From: Morinoia aosen
Lineage: Eukaryota > Arthropoda > Malacostraca > Amphipoda > Talitridae
Assembly (NCBI GenBank): GCA_030386875.1
Contig: CM059563.1
Coordinates: 29,240,139-29,304,138, forward strand
Reading direction: 5' to 3'
DNA length: 64,000 nt
A model generated the notes under the pieces. That model worked only from the letters and a program-made list of their open reading frames with translations, ran no database searches and was not told where the DNA came from. Both the position numbers and the translations under genes were made by a program. Positions within the stretch are counted from its first letter, which is position 1; the number at the start of each line of letters is the position of its first letter. Below are positions 3,062-64,000 of the stretch, in pieces.

Positions 3062-4346
3062 CGGCGTTATTCGGTTTATAACAAGAGTTAAGGAGGCGCC
3101 AAGTCTTTTTAACGTCAGCTTTGAATTGAGTAAACTTGAGGGTAAAGTAGCTCTTTTTTGATGTTCTTATCTGGTTTGTCACATAGTTTCTGAATCGGTT
3201 ATATGTTTCTCTAGATATTCGCCCTTCGCAAAGGAGGGCTAGGTACGCTTGGCGTTTCTTTATATTTATCACGATGTCTCTAGTAATCCAGGGCTTTTGT
3301 TTATTTTTCGGGGTAACTGTACAAGTTACAATTGGGCAACACTGATTGTATGCGGTCATTATAGTTTCAGTCAACTTTACTACTGATTCATCAATGCTCC
3401 TTGCATTATTGTTTTGTTGGGTGATGTGCAATGTTGGCATTAAATCTTCTAGAACGGTGCGCATTTCTTCTAAATTTGATTCGTTTATTTTACGATATGA
3501 ATAAGTTTCAGCCCGTGCTTTGGTGCACGCAAGATAGACATTTTTCTTAATAAGAAAAACTGGAAAATGATCTGATAAGTCAGAAGTAATTATTCCAGCA
3601 AGAAAATCACTTGGGTCTGTCATAAAGATATTGTCAAGCAGCGTGGCACATTCTGAGGTTATTCGTGTTGGCTTTGTGATGATCGGAAGGAAAGATTTAG
3701 AATGAAATGCATTTAAGAAATTAGAGATTGGTTCATAGCTTTCATGTTTCAGCAAATCATAGTTGAAGTCACCGCATATTGTTATGTCATTGTAGAAGGA
3801 CCTGTTGAACTGAGAAATAATTCGATTAAGCTCATTAAGGAAGGATATAGGACAGGCTGTAGGCGGCCTATACACCGTTCCAAGCACAATTCGTTTGCCA
3901 TCTCTAGACAGTTCTACGAATAATGATTCTATATGATCCTGATTCAGTGTTGCACTTGCTATGATTCTCGAATCCATGTGCTTAGAAATGTATGTACTGA
4001 TGCCCCCGCCTCGCTTGTTTTTTCGTAGCGAATGGTAACTATGATAATTTTCAAATTTAATCATGTCTTTGGTCGAGTCATCTAGCCAGCTTTCGGTGAA
4101 GCTAATCACATCTAAGGTATGCTTAAGTTCAGTAATAGTGCATTGTATCTCTTCCAATTTTGGATAGAGTGACCTACAGTTCCAACACAGTAGCGAAAAA
4201 TCCTGCCGGGTTATTCGTATAGATTCGTTGAATTTTGATATATTAGTATATCTGCAGTTTTCAGAGTCGTTTAGGTTTGGAAATATTCTGTTCAAATGAT
4301 CGAGATCCGGGTCGATTTCATCTAATATATCAGCGTGATCAGTCAT
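3027..4346 (-). pseudogene. LINE ORF2, N-terminal part: EEP (APE-like) endonuclease domain
   Basis: The 439-codon frame starts at an ATG and carries an exonuclease-endonuclease-phosphatase fold that would nick target DNA to prime reverse transcription. Visible motifs are LLCWNCRSL at about residues 52-60 (metal-binding Asn), TESW at 84-87 (catalytic Glu), RGGGI at 112-116, GTVYRPP at 156-162, GDFN at 192-195, LLDNIF at 236-241 and SDH at 258-260. These are the endonuclease signature positions in the right order and spacing, so this domain looks intact. The frame leaves the true reading frame at the A8 run (plus 3054-3061) and ends with about eight out-of-frame residues. The coding sense continues in the frame of the next entry. 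I infer one original polyprotein of about 1000 residues. Confidence 0.85.
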
Positions 4347-6677: not shown

Positions 6678-6717
6678 TTCAGACTAGCGCTAGTTTCGAA
6701 TATTCATTATCAATGAA
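6678..6717 (-). ncRNA. Hammerhead-ribozyme-like motif in PLE tail (left arm)
   Basis: Mirror copy of the motif at 9021-9060, on the minus strand of the inverted arm, with the same stem I, core, stem III and C at the expected cleavage position. The two core deviations are shared, so they predate the dimer or were inherited by both copies. Confidence 0.5.
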
Positions 6718-6786
6718 AGCTCTGAAAATAAGATCAAAAAATATAGACAAATTGATATTTCAATAGTTGCTAAGGATATATACAAC

Positions 6787-7947
6787 CTATATAATATACA
6801 ATTGGCAGGCACTTTGATCACAGTTAAGAACGGGTTTCTGCTTAAAAATGTACATTGATTCTAAAATCCGGAGATCGCTATTACACGTAGAGTCTAAAAT
6901 TGAAAAATCATCTACCGAGAAAATATGGTTGGTGCTTTCACAGTGAAGTCTAGGCGAAGACTGAGGTGGAGTTGCTAGCGGCCTATTAGTTCTAAATGAT
7001 TTGCCTAGATGTTGGTAAAATCTAATCTTTGACTGTTTCAGAGTGCTCCCTATGTAGGAACTCTGGCAGGTTCCACACTGATATTTATAAACAATACTAG
7101 AGAGCAACTCTTTCGGCAGTCTGTCTTTATACTGGAAAAATGATTTTATTTGGAAACTATTGCGAAAAACAAACTTGAAATCGATTTGGGGGTAAAATTT
7201 TCTCAAATTCCTAGTTAAATATTGTTTTAGCTCATCAGAAGTTGGTCCAATATACGGAAGCGATACATATAAAGCACATTTGGAAACTGTAGCTACCGTG
7301 ACCTGTGGCTTATCGAACATTTTGTTTAAAAACTTTTTAAGAGTATAGTCAAAAATATATTGAGGGTATCCATTGGTAGCAAAAAATGTTCTCAAGTAAT
7401 TTAGTTCGTCGCAAAACTTATGATAGTTTGATGACAGGTGAAAGGCTCTGTGAAAAAGTGTTCTCAAACTATTTAGTTTAAAAATGAAAGGGGTAAAGCT
7501 GAAGAAACTATTTCCTAGACCAGTGAAAGTCGGTTTCCGATAAATGCCTAGTTGAAGATGATTGTCAAAACGTTGAACCCTAACGTCTAAAAACGGCAAA
7601 ACTTTATCATTTTCTACATCCATGGTGAATTTGATATTTGGATGTTGACTATTAATATGATCTAGAAACAGATTGGCATGAGTGACATCATTAAAAATAA
7701 CAAAAGTATCGTCCAAATATCGGTTATAAAAAACAGGTTTGAAAAAATCTGGACAAGAAGACAGGTACTTATTTTCCATATTGCACATAAATATGTTCGC
7801 CAGAGTAGGGGCTAGAGGATTACCCATTGCCAGGCCATCTATCTGTTTGTACAAAATATTATTGAAATAAAAACACGTTTCGGTAACCGCCAGCTTCAAC
7901 AAATCCAAAAAAGACTTTCTGCCCAAACCATGATGGTATTCATTAAC
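6787..7947 (-). pseudogene. Penelope-like RT plus GIY-YIG endonuclease, 5'-truncated (left copy)
   Basis: An uninterrupted frame from the inversion junction to the stop at 6787; no proper ATG start exists because the 5' end (RT fingers and motif A) is missing. Counted from the TTG codon at 7926, RT motif B is QIDGLAMGNPLAP at about 28-40 and motif C is RYLDDT at 69-74, both typical of Penelope-like RTs. The C-terminal GIY-YIG nuclease has VYKYQC near 279-284, SSYIGST at 289-295, Arg302 and a conserved Glu in RILESMY near 358. PLEs use this nuclease to nick the target. The frame has no internal stop, so the loss is by truncation only. It is 97% or more identical to the right copy by eye. Expression as a functional protein is unlikely. 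Confidence 0.88.
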
Positions 7948-7949
7948 AT

Positions 7950-8951
7950 CCTCTAGCCCCTACTCTGGCGAACATACTTATGTGCAATATGGAAAATAAG
8001 TACCTGTCTTCTTGTCCAGATTTTTTCAAACCTGTTTTTTATAACCGATATTTGGACGATACTTTTGTTATTTTTAATCATATTAATAGTCAACATCCAA
8101 ATATCAAATTCACCATGGATGTAGAAAATGATAAAGTTTTGCCGTTTTTAGACGTTAGGGTTCAACGTTTTGACAATCATCGTCAACTAGGCATTTATCG
8201 GAAACCGACTTTCACTGGTCTAGGAAATAGTTTCTTCAGCTTTACCCCTTTCATTTTTAAACTAAATAGTTTGAGAACACTTTTTCACAGAGCCTTTCAC
8301 CTGTCATCATACTATCATAAGTTTTGCGACGAACTAAATTACTTGAGAACATTTTTTGCTACCAATGGATACCCTCAATATATTTTTGACTATACTCTTA
8401 AAAAGTTTTTAAACAAAATGTTCGCGAAGCCACAGGTCACGGTAGCTACAGTTTCCAAATGTGCTTTATATGTATCGCTTCCGTATATTGGACCAACTTC
8501 TGATGAGCTAAAACAATATTTAACTAGGAATTTGAGAAAATTTTACCCCCAAATCGATTTCAAGTTTGTTTTTCGCAATAGTTTCCAAATAAAATCATTT
8601 TTCCAGTATAAAGACAGACTGCCGAAAGAGTTGCTCTCTAGTATTGTTTATAAATATCAGTGTGGAACCTGCCAGAGTTCCTACATAGGGAGCACTCTGA
8701 AACAGTCAAAGATTAGATTTTACCAACATCTAGGCAAATCATTTAGAACTAATAGGCCGCTAGCAACTCCACCTCAGTCTTCGCCTAGACTTCACTGTGA
8801 AAGCACCAACCATATTTTCTCGGTAGATGATTTTTCAATTTTAGACTCTACGTGTAATAGCGATCTCCAGATTTTAGATTCAATGTACATTTTTAAGCAG
8901 AAACCCGTTCTTAACTGTGATCAAAGTGCCTGCCAATTGTATATTATATAG
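7950..8951 (+). pseudogene. Penelope-like RT plus GIY-YIG endonuclease, 5'-truncated (right copy)
   Basis: This copy starts at the PLAP residues of RT motif B (codon at 7950) and has an ATG at 7980 that is internal to the ancestral protein. RT motif C RYLDDT and the nuclease VYKYQC...SSYIGST are present. Compared with the left copy it lacks ten residues just after YLDDTFVIFN (a 30-nt in-frame deletion) and has a few substitutions: LQLG to RQLG, SSNYH to SSYYH, MFDKP to MFAKP, and RILES to QILDS. The last replaces the conserved catalytic Glu of the GIY-YIG family with Asp and may disable the nuclease. The frame ends at the same place as the left copy. Confidence 0.88.
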
Positions 8952-9020
8952 GTTGTATATATCCTTAGCAACTATTGAAATATCAATTTGTCTATATTTT
9001 TTGATCTTATTTTCAGAGCT

Positions 9021-9060
9021 TTCATTGATAATGAATATTCGAAACTAGCGCTAGTCTGAA
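9021..9060 (+). ncRNA. Hammerhead-ribozyme-like motif in PLE tail (right arm)
   Basis: Reading 5' to 3': stem I strand TTCA (9021-9024), core TTGATAA (9025-9031), one T, a weak stem II GAAT/ATTC, GAAAC (9041-9045), palindromic stem III ACTAGCGCTAGT (9044-9055), C (9056, expected cleavage position), stem I partner TGAA (9057-9060). This is the type I hammerhead layout, and PLEs are known to carry such ribozymes. Two core positions differ from CUGANGA (first C is T, the G is A), so self-cleavage is doubtful in this copy. Confidence 0.5.
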
Positions 9061-9118
9061 TGCCCATTTTAGAAAAATGAATTTTATTCCGCTGTTTGTG
9101 GTTTTATTCCTGATGAAA

Positions 9119-9150
9119 CTTAGATTTCCAAGACACGTACCCATCTCAGC
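9119..9150 (+). other. 32-nt unique extension of the PLE dimer
   Basis: Sequence between the end of the right inverted arm and the right target-site duplication that has no counterpart on the left. The two other inverted insertions in this window have an extension of similar length (33 and 41 nt) on the same side. Confidence 0.6.
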
Positions 9151-10959: not shown

Positions 10960-12404
10960 ATGAATAATAAGACATCGAATAGGAAGGAGCTCGAACAAGA
11001 GGGTCCAACTCACTTGGAGGCCAGGCAGGCACACATTAAACAAGCTCCCAAACTCCCTAACTCACTTCAAACTCCTCCTGTTTGCACTTCGGGCCCATGA
11101 ACGGCTTCTCGTGAGCGCTGTTTGCACTGCTGAGCTAAAGACTCGACGGTCTTCTAATAGCTTTAAACGCTTCTTTATTAAGGTTTACTAGCACTGCCTT
11201 AACATCGCTCTCATCTGTATGCTAATCGAGCTGCAGAGCTTAGTTTTTCGTTCAAATGGCGTGAAAAATTGTTCAAACTATTAGCGAGCTCAATGAAGTT
11301 AAATGCTTATATTTTTGAGATCATTTTTTTTCAAGGGAAGCTGTGGTTGTGTTTGCATTGAGAGGCACGATTCACTGCAGAGATGATGTCACAAGTGAGG
11401 AAAATGACTTGTTTGAAGAAGGTGTGATGTCATTTCAGGGTTCAGGGAATCCAGAGTAAACTTTAAAAACAATTTTAAATCCGTTTTGCACGTGTTCCGT
11501 TCGGCGTCGAGTCAAATAACCTACATGGAGAAAAATATAATTCTGAAGAGGAAAAGAATGCGCAAAGTCTATCTTCGCCGTGAAAAAAAGGATGTGTAAA
11601 GCCTATTATCGTGAAAAGGAGAAGGATGAGTTAAGGCTAAGAAAATGTACTTGCGTTGCCTACATGCATCATTCAACGTCAAAGCGAAAAGCTTAAGTAG
11701 AAAAAAATGCCTTCGTGAAGAAGAAAAAAATGTGTAAAGAATGAAGGCTTGCTTGCGTAGCCTCTCTCGGCGACAAACTCTACGGACTTTGCTCCCCGGA
11801 AACGACTTCTTTGACTGGAAGGAATTAGATAACATGAATTCACTACAATAAGCGAGGGCTTCTACACAACAAAGCAATGCCTGGAATTATTCTACAACTC
11901 TCTAGCGCTGCTCGGAACCAGTTGAGGTGAAAATGTGCTAACATCGTGAGTTCACTATAATATTTTCGATGCGCGCTTATCACGGTGAATGTTGTTGAAA
12001 CTTCAATGAATGTTCAAATGGAAGCTTCATAGCAAAACATGTTTGCCAATATCCACCCTGGGGGTATAGTCATCTGAAAAGATCGTAAACTTAGCGGTGA
12101 TCATTTTACCATTTCTACTATGCAGTAATATTTGGGGATTTTAGTAAATCTTTACGAAACTCCGTTTCTTCGTAGTTTAAATTGCTCGAAATGTTATAGT
12201 CTCTCTCTGTTGTCGATGTTGATAACATGAACTTAAAATTTGATAATTACACACATTGTATGGATACATCATTTGAAATAAATCAAAGTTTCCAGCAAAC
12301 ACATATGAGCTATGATTTACGCAGCTGTACATCATAAGTTTAGCTGATCTATATAAGAGCTTCCCATAAACTTTTGTCGAAAGGTAAAACTGATAATTAT
12401 AGCT
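10960..12404. other. No recognisable feature
   Basis: I see only AT-rich DNA with small overlapping open frames lacking motifs (for example 11569-11877, minus strand). Confidence 0.4.
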
Positions 12405-12530: not shown

Positions 12531-13829
12531 AAGCGCAGATATATAATCTGCGTCCCATGACAAATTCATTGTTTTCAATACATTCTAAGCGACGTACTGG
12601 CAAACGCCATGACTCGAGGATTTCATATCCGAGCATGCTTTGCAGGACGTATTTTAGGTGAGGTGTTATCGAGCTCACTTCTTGTTTTTTGAGCGTCGCT
12701 GTCAGATACAGCGCACGGAACACGATCAGATTCGTAGCTGCATTTAGGTGGCTTTTTTAGTTGGGACTCTGAAGTAGGGAAATGTTATTAAGCTAAACTC
12801 TGTTGCTTATGATTGCTTTTGAGATTAAGCTTTCTCGAATTATGTTAGAAGTGCAGAGCTGTTAATTGTTAAAGGATTTTGCGGGATACGTAATGAGCTC
12901 TCGGATTAATTACAGTTATTCATACCGATTACAATGCTTTTAAAATCACCTCCTCACTCAAATGAAGATTCATAATTAGTGAAAAATCTGTTGTTTTCTC
13001 TATTCCTGCCATTGATTGTTTATCATTATTTCGAAGTAATTTATTTTTAATAGCGTATCAATAACAATGGAATATAAACGTGCCACTTCTGTCAAAAATC
13101 TCCTGACAAATAAGATAATATGAGATACTCTCAAGAGTTAGTGTCCGAAGGCTACAAAGCTAACGGTTCATTTCACTGCTCGTCGGCTCGAAATTTTAAA
13201 GCGACCGAACGTGGTCCTCGAAGTTACCAAACTTGAACTTTAAACTCGAAATTATCAAGTTATCCCACTCGAAATTATCGAAACCGTCGGCGCACAGGGT
13301 CAAAGAAGCCCAACTATGTCAATGGGTAAGTTGGGATTTACAAAATGGATTTACAGGGAAAAGCGTGAGGAAAATCATATAAAAGCGTTACGATGCCAAA
13401 CCATCAGTAGCTTACAGACCTCTACTGTAAACGGAAATCTGACAGGATAATGCAAGTTTGAGCAAGTTCAAGGAGAATACACTGACAGATGAAGTCCTGT
13501 TTCAAGATGAGAGACTTTTCAGTGATGAAGTGAAATTCAACTGCCAATTTGATGCATTGCGAAGGAAGATATCTCTGGCTCTTTCTGTATGTAGAAAGCA
13601 GATCTCGGGTATCAAAAATCGCCTTTCTCGTTGTGTTCGTTACCTTATTCATATTACAAAATTTTCTTCTAATTCTGTACTACAAGGTTCAGAACTCAAC
13701 ACAAATCTGTTTATATGTGGAATATATTTTTATTTCTATTGTTAAAGAAGCTACATGACATGCGTTTCAAAAACAATTTGATCTTTTCCCAACAGGACAG
13801 TCTTCTCCCACCAGTCAAATTTCCCACAA
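12531..13829. other. No recognisable feature
   Basis: AT-rich. A short patch near 13180-13290 repeats CTCGAAATTATC-like words two to three times. No supported gene. Confidence 0.4.
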
Positions 13830-14335
13830 ATGTGGTGACAGGATCATTTTCTTAACAAAAGTGGTGAGAGGATCATTTTCTTAATGAAAGTGGTGACAGG
13901 ATCATTTTCTTAACAAAAGTGTTGACAGGATCATTTTCTTGACATGAGTGGTGACAGGATCATTTTCTTGGCATGAGTGGTGACAGGATCATTTTGTTAA
14001 CAAAAGTGGTGACAGGATCATTTTCTTGACATGAGTGGTGACAGGATCATTTTGTTAACAAAAGTGGTGACAGGATCATTTTCTTAACAAAAGTTGTGAC
14101 AGTATCATTTTGTTAACAAAAGTGGTGACAGGATCATTTTTTAGGATCATTTTGTTAACAAAAGTGGTGACAGGATCATTTTCTTAACAAAAGTTGTGAC
14201 AGTATCATTTTGTTAACAAAAGTGGTGACAGGATCATTTTCTTAACAAAAGTTGTGACAGTATCATTTTGTTAACAAAAGTGGTGACAGGGTCATTTTCT
14301 TCCACAAGAGTGGTGACAGGAACATTTTCTGCTGG
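13830..14335 (+). repeat. 29-bp minisatellite, about 17-18 copies
   Basis: The unit contains GTGGTGACAGGATCATTTTC followed by TTAACAAAA or TTGACATGA variants. Variants alternate to give 58-bp higher-order dimers: one type about 13.95-14.06 kb, and another (GTTGTGACAGTATC alternating with GTGGTGACAGGATC) at about 14.07-14.29 kb. One unit near 14140 is truncated. Confidence 0.9.
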
Positions 14336-17300
14336 CTTTGTGGTCGGGAACGGCCGCCTCCTGCTGCTAGCTTGTCTTTACTGAATCAATTCTTCAATTT
14401 ACCCCACTCTGAAATCTGAAGCCTGTGCTCTATCTCTTTCTATAACTAAACCCTAAAGTTCACCCTGAAGAGAAATTAGAGCAAATTCGCAATGAAAGCT
14501 TTAATTGCTTCATAATCTGCCAAGTCATTGGTTTGGTCTACCAACGAAAATGTCATCTCTGTAATAGTAGGAAAAATCAAGCCTCACTTTGAGAATTATT
14601 TTTTCTGTAAATGGTTACCTCTTCAACAAATATATTCTGCTCGATAGTTTAAGTTCCAACGACGGAATGCTGCCGAGTTTGATACGTCTAGAATTTTTAC
14701 CTAAGAGAACTTAGCTAAAACACAACAACTTTACCGTACCACAGCGTCTTTTACCCTCATCGCCTCAGAGCGAGTCGCACAATTTGCTACATCAGAGAAC
14801 CGCGTACGCAAATAACTTCGCTCAGGTCCGCCGAACTCTCCCTATTAAAATCGTAAACAAGAAAATTTGCGTCCAAGTCCTACAAAGCCAAACTGAGTCC
14901 CATCACTAACCATTTCCGGGGAAAGTTCCAACAGTTCCCACATCAGAGGCAACAATTCCCAGGAAAATTCCGGTTCCCAGCCGCACATTCCCGCTCTAGT
15001 GGCGTAAAACTGAAAGCGTCTGAGCCTCTAACATGATTGCAAAGAGCTGAGGAAACTCTGCGTATCAGAGATCAGTATTCTGGTGCGGCAGTCCCTTTAC
15101 CGCATTTTTTGAGACTTTATGTAAGAGTGCGATTGGTTCGGGTGGAGCCTATAAAAATACAGGAGCTTTCTTCAATCCTGAGCAAATTAGCACAGCTAAT
15201 TGATAGCGCTCTCCCTGAAGCCAATGCTTTGAGTTAAGCTGAAGATTCTAAATTGAATACAGCAAGTGGCTTGAATTAATTATAATTTTAAATTGGCTAT
15301 CAGTAATGATGCTCGTTTGGTGCTATGAAATACAAAGGTCACGATTTTATTCTGCAAGACAAAAATTGAGCTTGTTGTGAGCAAAACTGAGCTGACGATA
15401 TAGTTTTTCAACGTAATTTCTACGCCATCTTCCTTCATGATATACCTCCATTCTTTAAAATGGTACGCGTGCATGTTAGAATATAACAACACGACAATTA
15501 CGAACCAAAGAATTATGAATATTTTACAAAAAGTAAAATATAAAAGTTGACAGCTTGAAGAACGTATCATGAACGTCGGAGTTTCTTTCATTTTTATAGG
15601 AAAAATTAGATGCAGTATCAGACTTATTTTCTCGTGCCAATTCTTATGCGTTCCCCTTGTACATCGGCGTATGCTCTTCACTGAAAACAAAGCCTCTCAT
15701 GTGACACTTACAAGGATATTTGATTCAACGTTGTCACCGCTGTAAAGAAAGTGATCAACAGGTTTTTAAAATTCGTTATTCAACACCGTTGGCGAGGCTG
15801 CCTCTAACAAAACTCCACAAATTGTCCTTTTGATGTAAAAGCGGGATTGCGTTTCCCATCTGTCGAGACTTTTAGCAATTACGGCCAATTTTAATTGCAT
15901 CGAGTTTGTTTTCAAATCTGACGTCCCTCGGAAATTTACATTAGTCGCCAGTCAAAGCTCGGTGTCATTAAACCGAAGCGACTTATGCGATTACGAAATG
16001 CTAGAAAATGAAAAATTTTTACCAGAAATTACATTTCGAATTACGTTCACTACGTCAAATGAAATTGCATGCTATGACGTAATAGGAGAATGCAGAATTT
16101 AGAGTCGTATATTCCTTTTCATGTGGATATGAAAGAAACGGCCGGTATCGTTTAGAACTGTCCAATTATTTAAATTGAACGGGAAATAAAGTGATAATTC
16201 TAAAAACTACAGTGATATTACAAAGATTTTAGGATACTAAAAATAGTGAAAATATATTTTGAAATAACAGAATAAAATAAGGTCAAAGTCTTCACCAAAT
16301 ATACTTCAAAAAATTTGCTTGCGATTTTTTTACAATAAGTGGCAACAAAAAATTCAAATTTAAAATCGAGCAACATGCTAAAAGCTTTTCTGTCTCTGAA
16401 TTTATAACCGTACGAAGACGAACCGTGTATTACAAAATACGTGTTTGAAAAACGAGTGTTGTTGTGACATCCATGAATGAAAGAAAGAACATCTGCAACA
16501 AAAGGAAGACTTCAATCGTGACACTTTTACGTCTCTGTAAAGTTAGTATATCTTGAAAATAAATACTAAACCCGAATAGAAGTGTGAGAAAACTTACAAG
16601 AGCGTTTAAAAAAACTGTGAGATCCAGGACAATACGATGATTTGATCAGAAACATCCAATGTTGCAAGGTCCGAAAGTGAGTTTCAGTTTTTATTTTGCC
16701 ACTTTTGTTAGGATGCATCCCATAGCTGTTATATAGCGGTTTCTAATTGGAATTACCATAAGCTTGTTGCAAAAACTGTCTTCTCAGTTGAATGACCGTC
16801 CGCTGTGGGGTGTGGTTTCAAAGCATCAAAGGGACGCAGTGCTTTGAAGAAATATTGAGTGAATTCATTATACAGCAGAAAAATGGTCATAACCGAGAAA
16901 CAAGTCACAAGGATCGTCTGAACAAAAAATCATGGCGATAGAATAACTTTCCTTTGCTACTTTACAACGCAGAAAACATTCTTTTAAATATGAGAGCAAA
17001 GAAGTCAACATTGTCTAAGAACTTTACAGTATATAAAAGAACGTGGTAAGGCTGTCGCAATAAAAGGATCAATACAACACGAGGTGAAGATACATCAATT
17101 CTTCAACATTCAAAAACGGTACAGCTCGTATATCACAGGATTTAAGCAAAGATACATTTTTTGGCCCCGTAAGCACAAATAAACGGCCTCCCACATCGTC
17201 AGATCTTAACGCTTTGGATTATTTATGAAGTCGGATTTTGGTGCTGAATCTAGTCAAGTTTCTAATATTAATACCTCGCTGGAAAATTGAACAAAGTAGC

Positions 17301-27310: not shown

Positions 27311-27519
27311 ATCCTCATCATCTTTGGCAAACCTCGACTTTCACAGATAAACGCTATTTTCAGCTATTTTCCATCATTCATAACTTGAAACGTGTTAAAC
27401 ACTTCGAGTTAATTCAATTGCTGGGCTTAATTTGTACGCGGGCGAGTTGCGGGTCGCATATGATATTTTTTTGAATGAAATTGATACTAAAGATAGCTGA
27501 TTTGAAAATCGTTTTAAAT

Positions 27520-27560
27520 GATGAACGTTTCGGCTTTTGGCTCAAGCCATTTTCAACACC
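27520..27560 (-). ncRNA. Hammerhead-like motif, left arm
   Basis: Minus strand: TTGAAAA core (plus 27550-27556), one T, stem II GGCT...AGCC, then GAAACGTT (plus 27524-27531). The core deviates from CUGANGA. Its position near the outer part of the arm corresponds to that in the other PLE-type insertions. Confidence 0.4.
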
Positions 27561-27623
27561 TGTATAAGCGAATTGCAATACAGAAAATACAATATGGCTG
27601 CATTTTAATTTGTTTCTACAGGT

Positions 27624-27658
27624 GTTGATAATGACTTGAGCCTAAAACCACAACGTTC
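27624..27658 (+). ncRNA. Decayed hammerhead-like motif, right arm
   Basis: Plus strand: TTGATAA (27625-27631), T, a weakened stem region, then ACAACGTTC in place of GAAACGTT. Clearly the inverted partner of 27520-27560 but decayed. Confidence 0.35.
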
Positions 27659-27759
27659 ACTAATCAAAATTATTTTTAAATCAGCTATCTTTACCGTCAT
27701 TTTCATTTTAAAACTGGTTAAAGGGCTCTAACCTAAGTTAATTACACGTGATATTTTTT

Positions 27760-32278: not shown

Positions 32279-32815
32279 TCATCAACAATCGCGGCAATAT
32301 TTTACATCAATAATTTTGGAGATATTTTACATCAACTATCGCGGCAAAATTTTACATCAGTACTCGAGTAAAATTTTACATCAGTAATCGCGGCAATATT
32401 TGACATCAGTAATCGCGGCAATATTTTACATCAGTAATCGCGGTAATATTTTACATCAGTAATCGCGGCAATACTTTACGTCAGTAATCGCGGCAATATT
32501 TTACATCAGTAATCGCGGCAATATTTTACATCAGTAATCGCGGCAATACTTTACGTCAGTAATCGCGGCAATATTTTACATCAGTAATCGCGGCAATACT
32601 TTACGTCAGTAATCGCGGCAATACTTTACGTCAGTAATCGCGGCAATATTTTACATCAGTATTCGCGGCAATATTTTACATCAGTATTCGCGGCAATATT
32701 TTGCATCAGTAATCGCGGCAATATTTTACATCAGTAATCGAGGCAATATTTTACATCAGTAATCGCGGCAATATTTTACATCAGTAATCATCAGTAATAT
32801 TTAAGTCAGTAATCA
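32279..32815 (+). repeat. 25-bp minisatellite, about 21 copies
   Basis: Unit: CAGTAATCGCGGCAATATTT plus TACAT. The CpG-rich GCGGC core is conserved. Variants TACTTTACG occur in a scattered subset; degenerate units lie at both ends. Confidence 0.92.
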
Positions 32816-32865
32816 CAATCACAGTAACAATGGAGCAATAACGCAATTGCGATGAGAAGTAAACA

Positions 32866-33060
32866 ATTGAAAATTAAACAATTTAAACGGTTTTTTACAC
32901 TGTATATTTACAAGTGATACATCAGTAGATTGTCACTCTACTCACGTACAATGGACGCATTTGAGTATATCTACCTTTGGGCCAAATTAAGTTCAGTAAC
33001 TTTTATGGTATCTTATCATCAAGGTTATTTTAAGGTGTACAATTATGCTTAACCTAAAAA
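32866..33060 (-). mobile_element. 3'-end fragment of the same LINE family as 937-4346
   Basis: Aligns by eye (roughly 70-75%) to 948-1135: AACAATTTAAAC tail repeats, then TTGAGTATATCTACCT, TTGGGCC, AAGTTCAGTAACTT, and a terminal TTAACCTAA. Same orientation, so this is a severely 5'-truncated insertion, typical of LINE replication. It abuts the 25-bp minisatellite. Confidence 0.7.
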
Positions 33061-40641: not shown

Positions 40642-41074
40642 GGCCGAGTCGTGTCTCATCTCATGCTGACTCTGCCATTTCGAAGCGCCCCACATTGGCG
40701 GGGGTCTTTTACCTCCTTTCCCCTCACTACGACCCTGCAGACGCGGCAGAAATCAAGAAAAACACCGACTTCTTTCAGCTGACAAGAGTTCGAATCTTTT
40801 CCTTGCATGCAAAAATGACCAGCGGCTGTCATAGCGACGCGTTACTGAGAGGTAAAAAGGTATTGTTTTCTAGCGTGTGAGCTAAGCGTTGAGGACTCTT
40901 ATGAATTGAATCGATCATTTTATGTATTAATTATACAATTTATTGAACATTTTACGAACATCAAAGTTCTTCAAGCACTCTTTCAAGTTATTTGTATTTG
41001 AAGTTCATTACGTGTTAAAATTCTCAGCAAATTGCTTATCATTTTACTAATTCACACTATAGTCAATAGGTAAA

Positions 41075-41109
41075 ATGCAACGTTTCAATGCCACTGGCAT
41101 CATCCTCGG
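41075..41109 (-). ncRNA. Hammerhead-like motif, left arm
   Basis: Minus-strand mirror of 41775-41810. The core is CCGAGGA here, one change from the other arm; stem II and GAAACGTT (plus 41079-41086) are kept. Confidence 0.45.
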
Positions 41110-41774
41110 GCTGAAAAGACGAAAAGAAAACTGGTCACTCTATAGAAATGATACAATCACACAGGCAAAAATAAAGACCATTAATACAGAAACACACATG
41201 GATGTAAAATACCAATACTCTAACTATTCTCAACACATGTTCACTTGGCCGAAGAATAAAGCGAAATGGTGGACTGCAACGATTGTTCCAACAATTTACG
41301 GCGCGGTTCTCTTAAACAATTTCAAAGCAAAAAACTCGTTCATATTTTCATTGAGGGAAGGCTTGAGTTCATGGATATGTAAGGCTTCAATAATGTGAAC
41401 ATGCTGCTTTTACGGACATTATACAATACTTTAGTAGCTGGATAGAGATCTTCATTAGAGGGCTAAAAAACAACATATTCACATTATTGAAGCCTTACCT
41501 ATCCATAAACTCAAACCTTCCCTCAATGAAAATATGAACGAGGTTTTTTGCTTTGAAATTGTTTAAAATAACCGCGCCGTAAATTGTTGGAACAATCGTT
41601 GCAGTCCACCATTTCGATTATTCTTCGGCCAAGTGAACATGTGTTGAGAATAGTTAGTCTTGGTATTTTACATCCATGTGTGTTTTTGTATTAATGTCAT
41701 TAATGGTCTTTATTTTTGCCTGTGTGATTGTATCATTTCTATAGAGTGACCAGTTTTCTTTTCGTCTTTTCAGC

Positions 41775-41810
41775 CTGAGGATGATGCCAGTGGCATTGAA
41801 ACGTTGCATT
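41775..41810 (+). ncRNA. Hammerhead-like motif, right arm
   Basis: Core CTGAGGA (41775-41781) fits the hammerhead consensus CUGANGA exactly. It is followed by one T, stem II GATGCC-AGT-GGCATT (41783-41797) and GAAAC (41798-41802), then GTTGC. Stem III would be only AC/GT, and stem I is weak. Best core in the window, but folding and cleavage are unproven. Confidence 0.5.
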
Positions 41811-41932
41811 TCACCTATTGACTATAGTGTGAATTAGTAAAATGATAAGCAATTTGCTGAGAATTTTAACACGTAATGAACTTCAACTATATCGTGATGC
41901 TGATAAATTAGTAAAGAAACAAGTTATATATA

Positions 41933-46510: not shown

Positions 46511-46726
46511 AACTTTTTTATTGGATAAATTCAAATTAGGACATATTAAGGTTACTGAACAGTTGCATGACTAGAAATAAGATTTTATGGGTAACTAAGG
46601 TAGAGCACTAGAGAATGATAGATGGTAAAAATTACTTAAAATTGTCATATTTCCTTTAAAAAAAATACCAACCAATAAATAACTAGTCACTAGAACAGCA
46701 ATAGCTTCCTCCTGGAGTTACAGTTA

Positions 46727-47105
46727 CCATAATGCTTCAGTAACCGTTATCTGCAACAAGTATCTTGATGCTTCAGTAACCGTTACCTGCAGCAAGTACC
46801 TTGATGCTTCAGTAACCGTTACCTGCAGCAAGCACCTTGATGCTTCAGTAACCGTTACCTGCAGCAAGCACCTTGATGCTTCAGTAACCGTTACCTGCAG
46901 CAAGTACCTTGATGCTTCAGTAACCGTTACCTGCAACAAGTATCTTGATGCTTCAGTAACAGTTACCTGCAGCAAGTACCTTGATGCTTCAGTAACCGTT
47001 ACCTGCAGCAAGCACCTTGATGCTTCAGTAACCGTTACCTGCAGCAAGTACCTTGATGCTTCAGTAACCGTTACCTGCAGCAAGAGCCTTGATGCTTCAG
47101 GTACC
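46727..47105 (-). repeat. 36-bp minisatellite, about 10.5 copies
   Basis: Plus-strand unit TGCTTCAGTAACCGTTACCT plus GCAGCAAGTACCTTGA. Because the period is 36, a minus-strand frame (46724-47224) stays open and would encode repeats of LLQVTVTEASRY. Without any supporting non-repeat domain I treat it as repeat DNA. Confidence 0.92.
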
Positions 47106-47629
47106 ATAATGAACCTGCACAGCCCTTCTGTCCGCTCCAACACTTCAGCACGCACCTCCAACCCACGGTAAAAACTTTTTTTGCATTTCAGTTGACTCCT
47201 CTTACTTTTCGTCATTGACAACACGAATTTGACTCTAACATCGGCATTGACTTAATTTTTGGAAAACTTCATATGATGGTTAATCTTTAAAGGAAGGGCA
47301 GAAGAGACATTCTGTCTATGAAACCTTTTGCCTAATTCCAGCATTATCTTCGCTCATCCTCAGTAGGTAGTCTTTGTGAAAAGAAAATATAAGAATTCAA
47401 ACGACAGTGGATCAATAAAAGCTGTTTTGCAGCAGGAAATAAAAACGCTGGAGTTAACACGCGGGATTCTGTTGTTCGTTCAAAATTCCAAGTGACATGG
47501 AACTATATTGATCGTTGAGAACGTGTCGATGTCTATGATCGAAAACATTTCTCGCAAATTTTGTGTCTGTAGTTGATGATGATGACATGAAATCGAAATT
47601 TTTCTTGAGCATGGGATGCATTGTTTCGA
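47106..47629. other. No recognisable feature
   Basis: Short flanking region between arrays; no supported gene. Confidence 0.4.
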
Positions 47630-48359: not shown

Positions 48360-48605
48360 GTTATTTTGCAGGAATTTCAACATTCTGCCCTGAAGCAACT
48401 ACAATTTCTACATTCAGCACTGATGTAATTACACTAATATAATTCAGAAGCAATTCAATTCTACTTTCAATTCCTGCGTTCAGCACAAAAGTACAAAGTA
48501 CAGTACAATTCAACGCTACAATACCTGCACTCAGCACTAAAGTGTTCAGAATGCCTACATTCAACTCTAAAGTACATTTTCTTATATGCAATATTTAAGT
48601 ACAAT
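48360..48605 (+). repeat. Degenerate flank of the 30-bp minisatellite
   Basis: Decayed units such as TTTCTACATTCAGCACTGA and CTGCACTCAGCACTAAAGT recur at roughly 30-bp spacing and lead into the homogeneous array to the right. Confidence 0.65.
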
Positions 48606-49822
48606 TCAAAGATTAAGCTCTTAAGCATCGACACTTCCTACATTCGGCTCTGAAGTATCGACATTTCCTACATTCGGCTCTTAAGCATCGACATTTCCTA
48701 CATTCGGCTCCGAAGTATCGACATTTCCTACATTCGGCTCTCAAGCATCGACATTTCCTACATTCAGCTCTGAAGTATCGACACTTCCTACATTCGGCTC
48801 TGAAGTATCGACATTTCCTACATTCGGCTCTTAAGCATCGACATTTCCTACATTCGGCTCTGAAGTATCGACACTTCCTACATTCGGCTCTTAAGCATCG
48901 ACATTTCCTACATTCGGGTCTGAAGTATCGACACTTCCTACATGCGGCTCTGAAGTATCGACATTTCCTACATTCGGCTCTGAAGTATCGACATTTCCTA
49001 CATTCGGCTCTGAAGTATCGACACTTCCTACATGCGGCTCTGAAGTATCGACATTTCCTACATTCGGCTCTGAAATATCGACACTTCCTACATTCGGCAC
49101 TGAAGTATCGACATTTCCTACGTTCGGCTCTGAAGTATCGACACTTCCTACATGCGGCTCTGAAGTATCGACATTTCCTACATTCGGCTCTGAAGTAACG
49201 ACATTTCCTGCATGCGGCTCTGAAGTATCGACATTTCCTACATTCGGCTCTGAAGTATCGACACTTCCTACATTCGGCTCTGAAGTACTGAAGTATCGAC
49301 ACTTCCTCCATGCGGCTCTGAAGTATCGACATTTCCTACATTCGGCTCTGAAGTATCGACATTTCCTACATTCGGCTCTGAAGTACTGAAGTATCGACAC
49401 TTCCTACATGCGGCTCTGAAGTATCGACATTTCCTACATTCGGCTCTGAAGTATCGACATTTCCTACATTCGGCTCTGAAGTATCGACACTTCCTACATT
49501 CGGCTCTGAAGTATCGACATTTCCTACATTCGGCTCTGAAGTATCGACACTTCCTACATTCGGCTCTGAAGTATCGACATTTCCTACATTCGGCTCTGAA
49601 GTATCGACACTTCCTACATTCGGCTCTGAAGTATCGACACTTCCTACATTCGGCTCTGAAGTATCGACATTTCCTATATTCGGCTCTGAAGTATCGACAC
49701 TTCTTAGATTCGGCTCTGAAGTATCGACATTTCCTACATTCGGCTCTGAAGTATCGACACTTCCTACATTCGGCTCTGAAGTATCGACATTTCCTACATT
49801 CGGCTCTGAAGTATCGACAATT
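48606..49822 (+). repeat. 30-bp minisatellite, about 40 copies
   Basis: Unit TCGACATTTCCTACATTCGG plus CTCTGAAGTA. Units with ACATTTCC and ACACTTCC often alternate, giving a 60-bp dimer. Two identical 10-bp insertions of the GAAGTACTGAAGTA type lie about 100 bp apart (near 49285 and 49385). Minus-strand frames of 169-239 codons (CRKCRYFRAE or TSEPNVGNVD decapeptides) are by-products of the 30-bp period. Confidence 0.95.
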
Positions 49823-50799
49823 TTGTTTTGAACTGCTCCCGTGTCGTTTTCATTTATTTCTCTGTGTTTTGGAGTCAGCAGATGTATTTGATCAATAATC
49901 CCCGTCAGCAGATTCATTTGCTTTTATTACTTGCAAGTATGATACATTATTTGGCAGACTCTCTCACTCACACAAGTTGATGCAATTAAAAAAAAAAAGC
50001 TGATGCAATGACAACGCGTGCTACGTTTTTGAACCTGCAAGAAATTCTGTACCGGCTTTTCACCTAAAGCATCAATCATTTGACAACACTATCGGGCATT
50101 GTTGCCGCTCATGCTGGGTTGGCAGTATGTGAAAAAGAAAAATTCAAATGTAGGAGACAATAGAGCAATAAATGCTGTTCTGCTATAACCCACAAAGAAG
50201 GTACTTCTGAGTTATCTGTCACCAATTTTAATTTATGGTTTCCTTATGATGTTACGGTAAGGTTAAGTTAGGATAGCTTAATTCAGGTATTATAAATTTT
50301 AATTATTTTTAATTATTGTTTTGTTCCATTCATACTTTCCAGAACTTCAATTCGATATTCAAAAACAATTATATTTTTAACTTTTTCCTCTAAAAACACT
50401 TTTTCTCCTAAACAAGTGGTGACAGATAACCCGCAAGTACCGATGGGAATTTTTTGTAAATATCTAGCGGGATTTATTTAATTTAAATTTGGTTTCGTTT
50501 GGTTAACTTGGTACAGTTTTATAGCTAACCTCCATAATTTCAAAAAGATTCTTGACGGGGTCTGCGAACTCAGGGTATACGTTCCTCAGGAAATACTCAG
50601 GATATATCTATGCTTTTTCGCTGTTATTTACGTGTTATTATGTACGTCATTTACTGCTAAGTTACTCTGCTAGTCAGATAGCATCGCTCGTAATACAGCA
50701 GGGCTTCACTGGGCTTATTTTACCAGTCCTATTCTCCAGGCAACATCATTGTGCTACAATTTAAAGCTCCCGAAATCTTTTGACCTTGAGCTACGCAAT
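49823..50799. other. No recognisable feature
   Basis: AT-rich; 50440-50530 is loosely similar to 51880-51950 (GTTTCGTTCGGTTAACT-like words). No supported gene. Confidence 0.4.
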
Positions 50800-55899: not shown

Positions 55900-56653
55900 T
55901 ATAGAATTCAACTTTAGGTGGAGTAGTTGCAGTTTTTTTAGTTTTTGCACCTTTCGATTCAAAATGAACGGTATTAAAACGCTATTGTCAAGGGCCTTTG
56001 CAGTCAGTTCTAGCTGTAGCAATCTTCATAAGGAGTTTACTTTTCTAAAAAGGTTTTTCCACTCCAATGGTTTTCCAAAACAACTTTTTGAGACTACTCT
56101 TAGGAATTTTTTCAATCGAATGTACCACCAAACTTCGGCTGTTGCTACTGTAGAAAAGAAATATTTGTTTTGTATTCTCCCTTTTTTCGGTCAGCAATCG
56201 GAAAAAATGAAGAAAGAATTGTACGTACTTTTATCCAAATATTTCACTCATGTTAACTTTCATTTTGTGCTTCTTAATAAATACCGAATTGGTTCCTTTT
56301 TCAACTACAAAGATAAACTTTCGAAAGGTATGCTCTCTTCTGTAATTTAGCGACACAGTTGCGCACAGTGTGCGTCGGAGTATGTGGGTTCTACAACTAG
56401 AGCCTTACATATTCGCGTTGCAGAGCATGCCGGCCGAAGTTATCGCACGAACCGTCCTCTTGCTGCTCCTTCACACTCAGCCATACGAATCCATGCTGAA
56501 AGAGGTAATCTTCCTATAAAATTAGAGGACTTTAACGTTTTAGCAGCTGCTTCAAACCTCGTTGATCTGCGCATTATTGAATCCCTTTATATTTTACAAC
56601 GAAAGCCTTTTTCAAATGACTCCCAATCCGCTTTTCCTTTGCAAATAGTTTAG
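55900..56653 (+). pseudogene. Penelope-like RT C-terminus plus GIY-YIG endonuclease, with in-frame stop
   Basis: From about 55930 the frame reads SFFSFCTFRFKMNGIKTLLS, matching the SFFSFTPFIFKLNSLRTLFH region of the larger PLE. It continues through FFHSNGFP, FFNYKDKLSKGMLSS and then hits TAG at 56348-56350. The same frame resumes immediately with CAQCASEYVGSTTRALHIRV and RTNRPLAAP, then RIIESLYILQRKPF (conserved Glu) to the stop at 56651-56653. The TAG sits where the larger PLE has Tyr in VYKYQC, i.e. at the GIY part of the nuclease motif. A probable one-base shift in the T-run near 55932-55938 separates it from upstream homology. RT catalytic motifs are absent. Inactive. Confidence 0.8.
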
Positions 56654-56741
56654 GAATTTGATTTATTTTTAAGTTTTTCTTCCTGTTAAGTTTTCATGTT
56701 TTCTCGATATTGTCAATATGTAAATATTTTTTTTTTTCAGA

Positions 56742-56782
56742 GAATTTTGTTGAGAATGACTCTTTGAGTCGAAACGTTCAAT
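56742..56782 (+). ncRNA. Hammerhead-like motif in older PLE tail
   Basis: TTGAGAA core (56750-56756), one T, a clean 5-bp stem II GACTC-TTT-GAGTC (56758-56770), GAAAC (56771-56775), GTTC. Same order as in the other PLE tails here; the core has the same two deviations (first C to T, G to A) as the 9.0-kb copy. Stem III is minimal. Confidence 0.45.
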
Positions 56783-56800
56783 TTCACCGGTAAAGCTTTT

Positions 56801-59800: not shown

Positions 59801-60085
59801 GCCTCAGTCAAAATGTTGAGTGCATATTTTTAAAATCACCTATCTGTATCACTGTGTAAATTGCTTAGTTGTACACCGGCATAAAAGAAAAGCATTTCAT
59901 TTATTTACTACCCTTTCAGAATTGATTTTAGCATATGTGGTAAAAATTTTCACGCTTTTTAGACAGGATAGGAATGAATTCGAGTAGTACAGTCGGTTTT
60001 TCAATTCTGCAATTCACACAACCTAACCGAACTAACTGTAGCTCTGTAGCTACCGCACAAACGTTGCCAAGGTGTTAAACCCCTC
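56801..60085. other. Long stretch without supported gene
   Basis: AT-rich, with a T-rich tract at about 57285-57365. A GC-richer patch at 59040-59290 is open on both strands (plus 59071-59289, minus 59088-59285) but shows no domain. I see no convincing exon. Confidence 0.35.
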
Positions 60086-63000
60086 AATGTTGACTCAATG
60101 TTCCAACTCTCCAATGTTGACTCTATTTTTCAACTTATCTATGTTGACTCAATGTTTCAACTCTTCAATTTGACTCGATGTTTCGACTCTCCAATGTTGA
60201 CTCAATGTTTCAACTCATCTATGTTGACTCAATGTTTCAACTCATCTATGTTGACTCAATGTTTCAACTCTTCAATTTGACTCAATGTTCCAACTCTCCA
60301 ATGTTGACTCAATGTTTCAACTCTCCAATGTTTACTCAATGTTTCAACTCTTCAATGTTTACTCAATGTTCCAACTCTCCAATGATGACTCAATGTTCCA
60401 ACTTATCTATGTTGACTCAATGTTTCAACTCTCCAATGTTGACTCAATGTTTCAACTCTCCAATGTTTACTCAATGTTTCAACTCTTCAATGTTTACTCA
60501 ATGTTCCAACTCTCCAATGTTTACTCAATGTTTCAACTCTTCAATGTTTACTCAATGTTCCAACTCTCCAATGTTGACTCAATGTTCCAACTTATCTATG
60601 TTGACTCAATGTTTCAACTCTCCAATGTTGACTCAATGTTTCAACTCTCCAATGTTTACTCAATGTTTCAACTCTTCAATGTTTACTCAATGTTCCAACT
60701 CTCCAATGATGACTCAATGTTCCAACTTATCTATGTTGACTCAATGTTTCAACTCTCCAATGTTGACTCAATGTTTCAACTCTCCAATGTTGACTCAATG
60801 TTTCAACTCTCCAATGTTGACTCAATGTTTCAACTCTTCAATGTTTACTCAATGTTTCAACTCTTCAATGTTTACTCAATGTTCCAACTCTCCAATGTTG
60901 ACTCAATGTTCCAACTTATCTATGTTGACTCAATGTTTCAACTCTCCAATGTTGACTCAATGTTTCAACTCTCCAATGTTTACTCAATGTTTCAACTCTT
61001 CAATGTTTACTCAATGTTCCAACTCTCCAATGTTGACTCAATGTTCCAACTTATCTATGTTGACTCAATGTTTCAACTCTCCAATGTTGACTCAATGTTT
61101 CAACTCATCTATGTTGACTCAATGTTTCAACTCTCCAATGTTGACTCAATGTTTCAACTCTCCAATGTTGACTCAATGTTTCAACTCTCCAATGTTGACT
61201 CAATGTTCCAACTCTCCAATGTTGACTCAATGTTCCAACTCTCCAATGTTGACTCAATGTTTCAACTCTCCAATGTTGACTCAATGTTCCAACTCTCCAA
61301 TGTTTACTCAATGTTCCAACTCTCCAATGTTGACTCAATGTTCCAACTCTCCAATGTTGACTCAATGTTCCAACTCTCCAATGTTTACTCAATGTTCCAA
61401 CTCTCCAATGTTGACTCAATGTTTCAACTCTTCAATTTGACTCAATGTTCCAAGTCTCCAATGTTGACTCAATGTTTCAACTTATCTATGTTGACTCAAT
61501 GTTCCAACTCTCCAATGTTGACTCAATGTTCCAACTCTCCAATGTTTACTCAATGTTCCAACTCTCCAATGTTGACTCAATGTTTCAACTCTTCAATTTG
61601 ACTCAATGTTCCAACTCTCCAATGTTGACTCAATGTTTCAACTTATCTATGTTGACTCAATGTTTCAACTCTCCAATGTTTACTCAATGTTCCAACTCTC
61701 CAATGTTGACTCAATGTTTCAACTCTTCAATTTGACTCAATGTTTCAACTCTCCAATGTTGACTCAATGTTTCAACTTATCTATGTTGACTCAATGTTTC
61801 AACTCTTCAATGTTGACTCAATATTTCAACTTATCTATGTTGACTCAATGTTTCAACTCTCCAATGTTTACTCAATGTTTCAACTCTTCAATTTGACTCA
61901 ATGTTCCAACTCTCCAATGTTGACTCAATGTTTCAACTCTCCAATGTTGACTCAATGTTTCAACTCTTCAATTTGACTCAATGTTCCAACTCTCCAATGT
62001 TGACTCAATGTTTCAACTCTCCAATGTTGACTCAATGTTCCAACTCTCCAATGTTGACTCAATGTTTCAACTCTTCAATTTGACCCAATGTTTCAACTCT
62101 CCAATGTTGACTCAATGTTCCAACTCTCCAATGTTGACTCAATGTTTCAACTCTTCAATTTGACCCGATGTTTCAACTCTCCAATGTTGACTCAATGTTT
62201 CAACTCTCCAATGTTGACTCAATGTTTCAACTCTCCAATGTTGACTCAATGTTCCAACTCTCCAATGTTGACTCAATGTTTCAACTCTTCAATTTGACCC
62301 GATGTTTCAACTCTCCAATGTTGACTCAATGTTTCAACTCTCCAATGTTGACTCAATGTTCCAACTCTCCAATGTTGACTCAATGTTTCAACTCTTCAAT
62401 TTGACCCGATGTTTCAACTCTCCAATGTTGACTCAATGTTCCAACTCTCCAATGTTAACTCAATGTTTCAACTCTCCAATTTGACCCGATGTTTCAACTC
62501 TCCAATGTTGACTCAATGTTTCAACTCATCTATGTTGACTCAATGTTTCAACTCTTCAATTTGACCCGATGTTTCAACTTTCCAATGTTGACCCAATGTT
62601 TCAACTCATCTATGTTGACTCAATGTTTCAACTCTTCAATTTGACTCGATGTTTCAACTCTCCAATGTTGACTCAATGTTTCAACTCATCTATGTTGACT
62701 CAATGTTTCAACTCATCTATGTTGACTCAATGTTTCAACTCTTCAATTTGACCCGATGTTTCAACTCTCCAATGTTGACTCAATGTTTCAACTCATCTAT
62801 GTTGACTCAATGTTTCAACTCATCTATGTTGACTCAATGTTTCAACTCTTCAATTTGACTCGATGTTTCAACTCATCTATGTTGACTCGATGTTTCAACT
62901 CATCTATGTTGACTCAATGTTTCAACTCTTCAATTTGACTCAATGTTTCAACTCTCCAATGTTGACTCAATGTTTCAACTCATCTATGTTGACTCAATGT

Positions 63001-63837
63001 TTCAACTCATCTATGTTGACTCAATGTTTCAACTCTTCAATTTGACTCGATGTTTCAACTCTCCAATGTTGACTCAATGTTTCAACTCATCTATGTTGAC
63101 TCAATGTTTCAACTCTTCAATTTGACTCAATGTTTCAACTCTCCAATGTTGACTCAATGTTTCAACTCATCTATGTTGACTCGATGTTTCAACTCATCTA
63201 TGTTGACTCAATGTTTCAACTCATCAATTTGACCCGATGTTTCAACTCTCCAATGTTGACTCAATGTTTCAACTCATCTATGTTGACTCAATGTTTCAAC
63301 TCATCTATGTTGACTCAATGTTTCAACTCATCTATGTTGACTCAATGTTTCAACTCTTCAATTTGACTCGATGTTTCAACTCTCCAATGTTGACTCAATG
63401 TTTCAACTCATCTATGTTGACTCAATGTTTCAACTCTTCAATTTGACTCGATTTTTTAACTCTCCAATGTTGACTCAATGTTTCAACTCATCTATGTTGA
63501 CTCAATGTTTCAACTCTTCAATTTGACTCGATGTTTCAACTCTCCAATGTTGACTCAATGTTTCAACTCATCTATGTTGACTCAATGTTTCAACTCTTCA
63601 ATTTGACTCGATGTTTCAACTCTCCAATGTTGACTCAATGTTTCAACTCATCTATGTTGACTCAATGTTTCAACTTATCTATGTTGACTCAATGTTTCAA
63701 CTCTTCAATTTGACTCAATGTTTCAACTCTCCAATGTTGACTCAATGTTTCAACTCTCCAATGTTGACTCAATGTTTCAACTCATCTATGTTGACTCAAT
63801 GTTTCAACTCTTCAATTTGACTCGATGTTTCAATTCT
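60086..63837 (+). repeat. 27/26-bp satellite-like array with higher-order structure, about 140 copies
   Basis: Basic unit CTCAATGTTTCAACTCTCCA plus ATGTTGA (27 bp), with variants TTCCAACTC, CATCTATG, TTTACTC, and a 26-bp version ending TTCAATTTGA. About 60290-61430 is pure 27-mer with mixed point variants forming larger blocks. From about 61430 the 26-mer recurs every 80 or 107 bp (sometimes 134), that is two, three or four 27-mers plus one 26-mer. The 27-bp period keeps frames open (up to 438 codons); these are not genes. Confidence 0.97.
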
Positions 63838-64000
63838 TCAACGAGATCATCCCAGGCCCCTGCCAGGCCCCAGTCGCTCCGATGGTCATTTCTCATATTT
63901 TTGTTGGAAAAGGACCCTTAGGTGGTGGACTATTCATTCCTAAAATTTTATGGCGCTACGGACAGTAGATCCCCCCCCCCCAAGGGGTGGGGGGGGAAGG
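63838..64000. other. Unique sequence ending in a C-run/G-run
   Basis: After the array comes GC-richer unique DNA (CAGGCCCCTGCCAGGCCCC near 63853), then a run of about eleven C at 63971-63981 followed by AA and G-rich sequence to the window end. The latter could be a real poly(C)/poly(G) tract or a sequencing/assembly edge. Confidence 0.5.

Follow-up and report, generated by a model that had tools for sequence, protein, structure and literature searches.

The window analysed here is a 64,000-nt stretch of the Morinoia aosen genome (C8:29240139-29304138; the genome searched comprises 1.99 Gb in 29 contigs), and it contains four tails, at 9.0, 27.5, 41.8 and 56.8 kb, which carry a hammerhead-like motif, two of them behind frames of Penelope-like elements (PLEs). 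The features are listed below with window coordinates and strand, the basis of each assignment being given in brackets.

9018..9063, +: candidate pseudo-LTR hammerhead at 9.0 kb (sequence, descriptor, genome copies)
9018-9024 with 9057-9063, +: its helix I, 6/7 pairs
9025-9045, +: TTGATAA-T-GAATATTC-GAAAC, with the core TTGATAA (U3, A8) at 9025-9031, U10 at 9032, stem II at 9033-9040 and GAAA at 9041-9044
9044-9055, +: its helix III palindrome ACTAGCGCTAGT, then H17 = C at 9056, with predicted cleavage after it
6681..6720, -: inverted duplicate of the 9.0-kb hammerhead, its core running down from 6713 (inverted repeat I1, sequence, descriptor)
7947..8951, +: PLE reverse transcriptase/endonuclease frame, 5' truncated, upstream of the 9.0-kb hammerhead (ORF, weak RVT_1)
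6787..7959, -: inverted duplicate of the 9.0-kb PLE frame, preceding the 6.7-kb hammerhead (ORF, 95% identical)
27516..27564, -: candidate pseudo-LTR hammerhead at 27.5 kb (sequence, descriptor, model R1 E 6e-05)
27560-27557 with 27523-27520, -: its helix I, GGTG with CATC
27556 down to 27527, -: TTGAAAA-T-GGCTTGAGCCAAAAGCC-GAAAC, with the core TTGAAAA (U3/A8) at 27556-27550, U10 at 27549, stem II at 27548-27532 and GAAA at 27531-27528
27527-27525, -: its CGT, then H17 = T at 27524
27617..27665, +: decayed head-to-head partner of the 27.5-kb hammerhead (inverted repeat I4, model R1 E 0.27)
41767..41813, +: candidate pseudo-LTR hammerhead at 41.8 kb (sequence, descriptor, model R1 E 0.0051)
41773-41774 with 41806-41807, +: its helix I, GC with GC
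41775-41802, +: CTGAGGA-T-GATGCCAGTGGCATT-GAAAC, with the core CTGAGGA (C3, G8) at 41775-41781, U10 at 41782, stem II at 41783-41797 and GAAA at 41798-41801
41802-41804, +: its CGT, then H17 = T at 41805
41071..41117, -: head-to-head partner of the 41.8-kb hammerhead, core U4-to-C (inverted repeat I2, sequence, model R1 E 0.042)
56742..56786, +: candidate pseudo-LTR hammerhead at 56.8 kb (sequence, descriptor, covariance model as a training member)
56747-56749 with 56779-56781, +: its helix I, TTG with CAA
56750-56775, +: TTGAGAA-T-GACTCTTTGAGTC-GAAAC, with the core TTGAGAA (U3, A8) at 56750-56756, U10 at 56757, stem II GACTC-TTT-GAGTC at 56758-56770 and GAAA at 56771-56774
56775-56777, +: its CGT, then H17 = T at 56778, with predicted cleavage after it
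55931..56650, +: PLE frame remnant interrupted by an in-frame stop, preceding the 56.8-kb hammerhead (42-43% identity to the frame at 9.0 kb)

The window also contains a non-LTR retrotransposon remnant with endonuclease and reverse-transcriptase frames (1343-4346, -) and tandem arrays at 13753-14356 (unit of ~29 nt), 32295-32894 (~25 nt), 46653-47156 (~36 nt), 48470-49850 (~30 nt) and 59983-64000 (~27 nt, running on at the window end).

Direct reading of the window confirmed that all four tails follow the order YTGANRA, one T, stem II and GAAAC, as a preliminary description of this DNA had claimed, and that the extra T, a single U after A9, is constant. Each tail also contains a helix I and a cleavage site, which that description did not list. 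ACGT lies within GAAACGTT in three tails, and the palindrome followed by C takes its place as helix III in the 9.0-kb tail; GAAAC is gone from the plus-strand partner (27.63 kb) of the 27.5-kb tail. The hammerhead core, namely CUGANGA or a compensated 3-8 pair together with GAAA and H17, is present in the four tails and genome-wide. Bases 3 and 8 are reported to pair, and U3/A8 is described as a natural variant active in vitro (PMC3088659), after which the U3/A8 tails (three of the four, with C3/G8 in the other) were counted as compensated. The earlier YTGANRA consensus thus describes covariation of the 3-8 pair, not looseness. Stem II does not directly follow A9 in any of the tails, one U lying between, which weakens the term 'canonical' and leaves 'hammerhead' intact because one natural hammerhead is known to have a single extra base at this place. 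The 9.0-kb tail has a weak stem II (GAA/UUC enclosing two bases; with a loop of four, no more than two pairs can form in practice), and the 41.8-kb tail has a helix I of two pairs only and a stem II closed by a G-U pair.

The 9.0- and 56.8-kb tails sit after the 3' ends of reverse-transcriptase/endonuclease frames which are mutually 42-43% identical, and a tblastn search found no PLE frame near the inverted-repeat copies at 27.5 and 41.8 kb. Matches of the frames to RVT_1 were weak and below the curated cut-off, at which strength the reverse transcriptase was counted as present, and the match to GIY-YIG (PF01541) was marginal (E about 0.09 in 2/3 members). Because of this, the Penelope-like name rests also on domain order, on characteristic motifs and on layout. 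The GIY-YIG motif of the frames was recognised by eye. As for layout, the pseudo-LTR arrangement of PLEs was found both as tandem units and as head-to-head inverted pairs, and the same two arrangements are described for rotifer elements (PMC3846280). Among 60 loci fetched by the motif alone, some of which overlap as head-to-head pairs, 52 contained PLE protein sequence, which was upstream on the same strand in 44.

In the genome, the 56.8-kb tail gave 42 matches among the 40 candidates scored of 758. Units of this family follow each other head to tail at 2,672-2,673 nt in the two arrays measured, and with a repeat of ~2.67 kb one transcript can hold two ribozymes. For the 9.0-kb tail, 40 scored copies were 99-100% identical, which indicates that this family has spread recently together with the motif. 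It comprises window positions 8952-9120 and the PLE frames at 6787-8951, and it has a 12-nt palindrome as helix III. Helix I is broken by one base in the window copy; 9/12 fetched loci of the family have A at that place, which gives seven unbroken pairs. These copies bear on whether the ribozymes are fossils, inherited with old copies and inactive now in this genome. Copies in the window are truncated or inverted, some with core damage, and those of the 56.8-kb family are mostly 91-94% alike, as fossils would be, but the recent spread of the 9.0-kb family with its motif speaks against this explanation, which we consider quite unlikely. In addition, both tails have copies at 99-100% identity 632-638 kb upstream on the same contig (C8:28608543, 28664751), pointing to either a large segmental duplication or an effect of the assembly.

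How readily such motifs arise by chance depends on how much of the hammerhead is demanded. In the window, enrichment of the bare CTGANGA..GAAA pattern is no more than mild (16 matches vs 8.24 expected; 1/100 shuffles as high), which is what a chance likeness would predict, and core, stem II and GAAA with one insert gave 7 matches vs 1.4 expected. The full descriptor, which demands also helix I, helix III or ACGT, and H17, retrieved five sites only in the 64 kb, namely the four tails and the inverted copy at 6713 (-), all of them with one inserted T. In 300 Markov sequences it found 0.16 one-insert matches per 64 kb (maximum 3) and 0.003 of the GAAACGTH type. Since the descriptor was written after the sites had been seen, genome-wide counts are the weightier test. 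There, the U10 motif had 13,290 exact matches with C3/G8 against 1 for the backward-pattern control and 2,179 with U3/A8 against 4, while the mismatched combinations U3/G8 and C3/A8 numbered 276 and 341 (control 1 each), corresponding to a cross-ratio of ~308 for the 3-8 pair. These counts are not independent events because copies are related, and all U3/A8 families may derive from a single switch. Even so, they exceed the backward-pattern control hundreds-fold or more. Elsewhere in the genome, C6:1159655-1650243 harbours a dense cluster of one hammerhead family in which numerous variants with point changes in the core and at position 10 lie side by side.

We further examined pairing in alignments. 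Sequences of equal stem II length were aligned because a MAFFT alignment restricted to the four tails put stem II out of register; the resulting alignment (A4) comprises 18 sequences, several of them close relatives, from fetched loci and the window copy. Paired cells reached 92.4% vs 64.7% in shuffles, the covariation score 0.831 vs 0.295, and cells changed on both sides 50 vs 17.7, none of which was attained in 500 shuffles. The pairing signal was destroyed by sliding the partner one to three columns. Two coarser measures were not exceptional in this alignment (pairs changed on both sides, 159/500; further pair types, 104/500). Across 24 families of stem II, 90/96 stem II pairs form vs 62 when shuffled (0/5,000 shuffles). 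In helix I, pairs 1 to 3 are present in 21, 20 and 17 of the families vs 13.5, 9.7 and 10.0 (0, 0 and 11 of 5,000), and pairs 4 and 5 are at chance level. Families were defined by stem II similarity (equal length, at most 3 differences), a grouping that may separate relatives and that includes a few decayed copies, and matches <40 nt from a locus end were left out of the pairing test. As the loci were fetched with patterns fixing the core, U10, G10.1, C11.1 and GAAACGTT, the fixed columns, including the 10.1-11.1 pair, carry no weight in these tests. Helices I and II are supported by covariation. The preliminary description had pointed out that the stem II sequences differ yet pair and had named pairing in a wider family alignment as a test; both hold, and the hammerhead-like motif that it saw in PLE tails is borne out by parts in register, genome counts and covariation. 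Together, the genome-wide counts and the covariation of helices in the 24 families and the 18-sequence alignment refute a chance likeness, whose probability we regard as negligible.

For helix III, the 12-nt palindrome at 9.0 kb is able to fold as a hairpin, and elsewhere there is ACGU only, with which helix III is possible in a dimer. Without constraints, RNAfold and RNAcofold failed to recover the hammerhead fold in most of seven sequences, and the monomers lack a stable helix III. A covariance model of our own (R1, with the 56.8-kb copy as a training member) matched the 27.5-kb (E 6e-05) and 41.8-kb (E 0.0051) tails and the decayed partners (E 0.042 and 0.27), and it missed the 9.0-kb site, probably because of the longer helix III there. 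Rfam at gathering thresholds detected no hammerhead in the 64-kb window, and at E<=10 it detected none in the 9.0-, 41.8- and 56.8-kb tails, the 27.5-kb tail being covered by the gathering search. The absence of a hammerhead-model match, which the preliminary description had named as a refutation, thus holds for Rfam. At gathering, however, Rfam also matched 0/20 motif-bearing genome loci (16 C3/G8, 4 U3/A8), so its silence refutes nothing. Nothing useful came from PDB searches. Overall, we consider that the tails are minimal hammerheads with U10 in PLE pseudo-LTRs, for which dimeric cleavage to unit-length RNA is predicted, with a probability of roughly 0.8.

The extra T occupies position 10, which separates A9 from 10.1. 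In C3/G8 motifs with G10.1, U10 occurs 13,290 times vs 351 for A, C or G together (control 9), and motifs without an insert number at most 92 (control 6), of which ~65, counted by eye, have GG after A9 and may be T-to-G variants. In nature, the plus-strand hammerhead of chrysanthemum chlorotic mottle viroid has an extra A at position 10, and in that hammerhead C or G is reported to be harmful and U to raise the trans-cleaving rate 3-4-fold (PMC3705267). The inserted position is therefore not new. By analogy with the viroid hammerhead in vitro, U10 may be a tolerated or favourable bulge beside stem II.

Alternatively, the extra T could be kept because A9-T-G10.1 provides an ATG with which the PLE ORF, or an ORF upstream of it, begins. 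An ATG is present there in all four tails, and in PAc, a lizard PLE, the ORF reportedly starts where stem II does (PMC11167929). However, the long frame of the 56.8-kb family starts 30 nt past the cleavage site, a stop follows within six codons of the ATG in 3/4 tails (by eye), and U10 is kept with A at 10.1, where no ATG results, in 83 motifs vs 1 in the control (genome count covering U10 only, with identical families recurring). On the frame start of the 56.8-kb family and the A10.1 motifs we dropped a start codon as the cause of U10 and regard it as very unlikely. U10 would instead be held by RNA function.

Hammerheads in PLEs are a kind already known (PMC6155905, PMC7761336, PMC11167929), and they are described as minimal and possibly acting as dimers (PMC6155905, PMC7229834, PMC7761336). 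In the mechanism that we propose, two ribozymes would pair through the palindrome ACGU and thereby complete helix III, and cleavage after H17 would release unit-length RNA whose 5'-OH end would lie ~30 nt ahead of the PLE ORF, a distance measured in the 56.8-kb family. Such RNA might be usable both as messenger and as template for reverse transcription. The experiments on PAc leave room for another function, in which the fold would be kept because it binds protein or marks the start of reverse transcription, and not for cleavage: the PAc hammerhead cleaved in vitro only with its protein, its mutants left insertion in vitro unaffected, and no RNA-seq reads were reported to start or end at the cleavage site (PMC11167929). 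Moreover, the hammerheads of Terminons are thought to expose telomere-like repeats (PMC6431247). Against this explanation, retention of the catalytic core bases, of the 3-8 pair and of H17 matches what catalysis would require, although GAAACGTT was fixed in the patterns. We judge it unlikely, somewhat less so than fossil ribozymes, and favour minimal hammerheads that would cleave as dimers.

The minimal type I PLE hammerheads of Cervera and De la Pena (2014) and Lunse, Weinberg and Breaker (2017), as described in citing papers, share with the present motifs the place in the pseudo-LTR, the minimal or missing helix III and the suspected dimeric action, and differ in that U10 is near-fixed here and many motifs are U3/A8. 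The viroid hammerhead likewise has one extra base between A9 and 10.1 (PMC3705267), with A in nature where this genome has U, and with a different host element and helix III. The same compensatory 3-8 change, with activity in vitro, was reported earlier by Perreault et al. 2011 (PMC3088659), whose several U3/A8 examples compare with 2,179 exact motifs, with U10, in this genome. PAc of Anolis carolinensis likewise carries a pseudo-LTR hammerhead near the ORF start, but its ORF begins at stem II (PMC11167929), whereas that of the 56.8-kb family begins ~30 nt past the cleavage site.

We also looked at contigs of a viral collection. Among the matches listed, some from scans requiring T, full motifs with U10 were found in L071 (twice), L006, L043, L108, L184 and, less surely, L001; motifs with C10 in L252 and, less surely, L084; and motifs without an insert in L083, L105, L131 (twice) and L160. 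The L071 motifs, at 12920-12954 and 13280-13314 (-), are 360 nt apart, and that of L006 lies at 11740-11774 (+). Sorted by inserted base, stem II plus helix I of at least 4 pairs occurred in 0/48 distinct matches for A, 2/52 for T, 2/43 for C and 0/9 for G, numbers too small to call U preferred. Rfam found no hammerhead in five viral loci or in one short L071 stretch, missing at gathering the U10 motifs of L071, L006 and L043, and PLE protein scans of the viral contigs found none.

Beside the core, 18/24 families (loci L280-L359) have a pyrimidine tract and YAG within 16 nt before it, compared with 1-5/24 when the same test was shifted 40-240 nt upstream; matches <300 nt from a locus end were left out. 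All four window tails have CAG before the core (9014-9016, 27560-27562 on the minus strand, 41771-41773 and 56738-56740). The tract looks like a 3' splice acceptor whose putative exon would begin with the ribozyme. Judged by the open literature, the fixed U10 form and the acceptor-like tract in 18/24 families may be new, and in one review the role of PLE hammerheads is called unknown (PMC7761336). We offer, as a possible though doubtful extension, that U10 hammerheads may be a distinct lineage missed by RNA models, near-fixed across the PLE families here and also present in contigs of the viral collection, and that in PLEs they may be joined to a 3' splice acceptor, so that a transcript would be either spliced onto the ribozyme exon or cut, setting messenger against template.

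With more than 15,000 exact motifs, covariation of a core pair and one or more very young families, this genome offers ready material for tests. Should U10 forms prove widespread, genomic ribozymes are being undercounted by hammerhead models that miss them, and a splice acceptor next to the ribozyme would hint at a way in which cutting and translation are kept separate.
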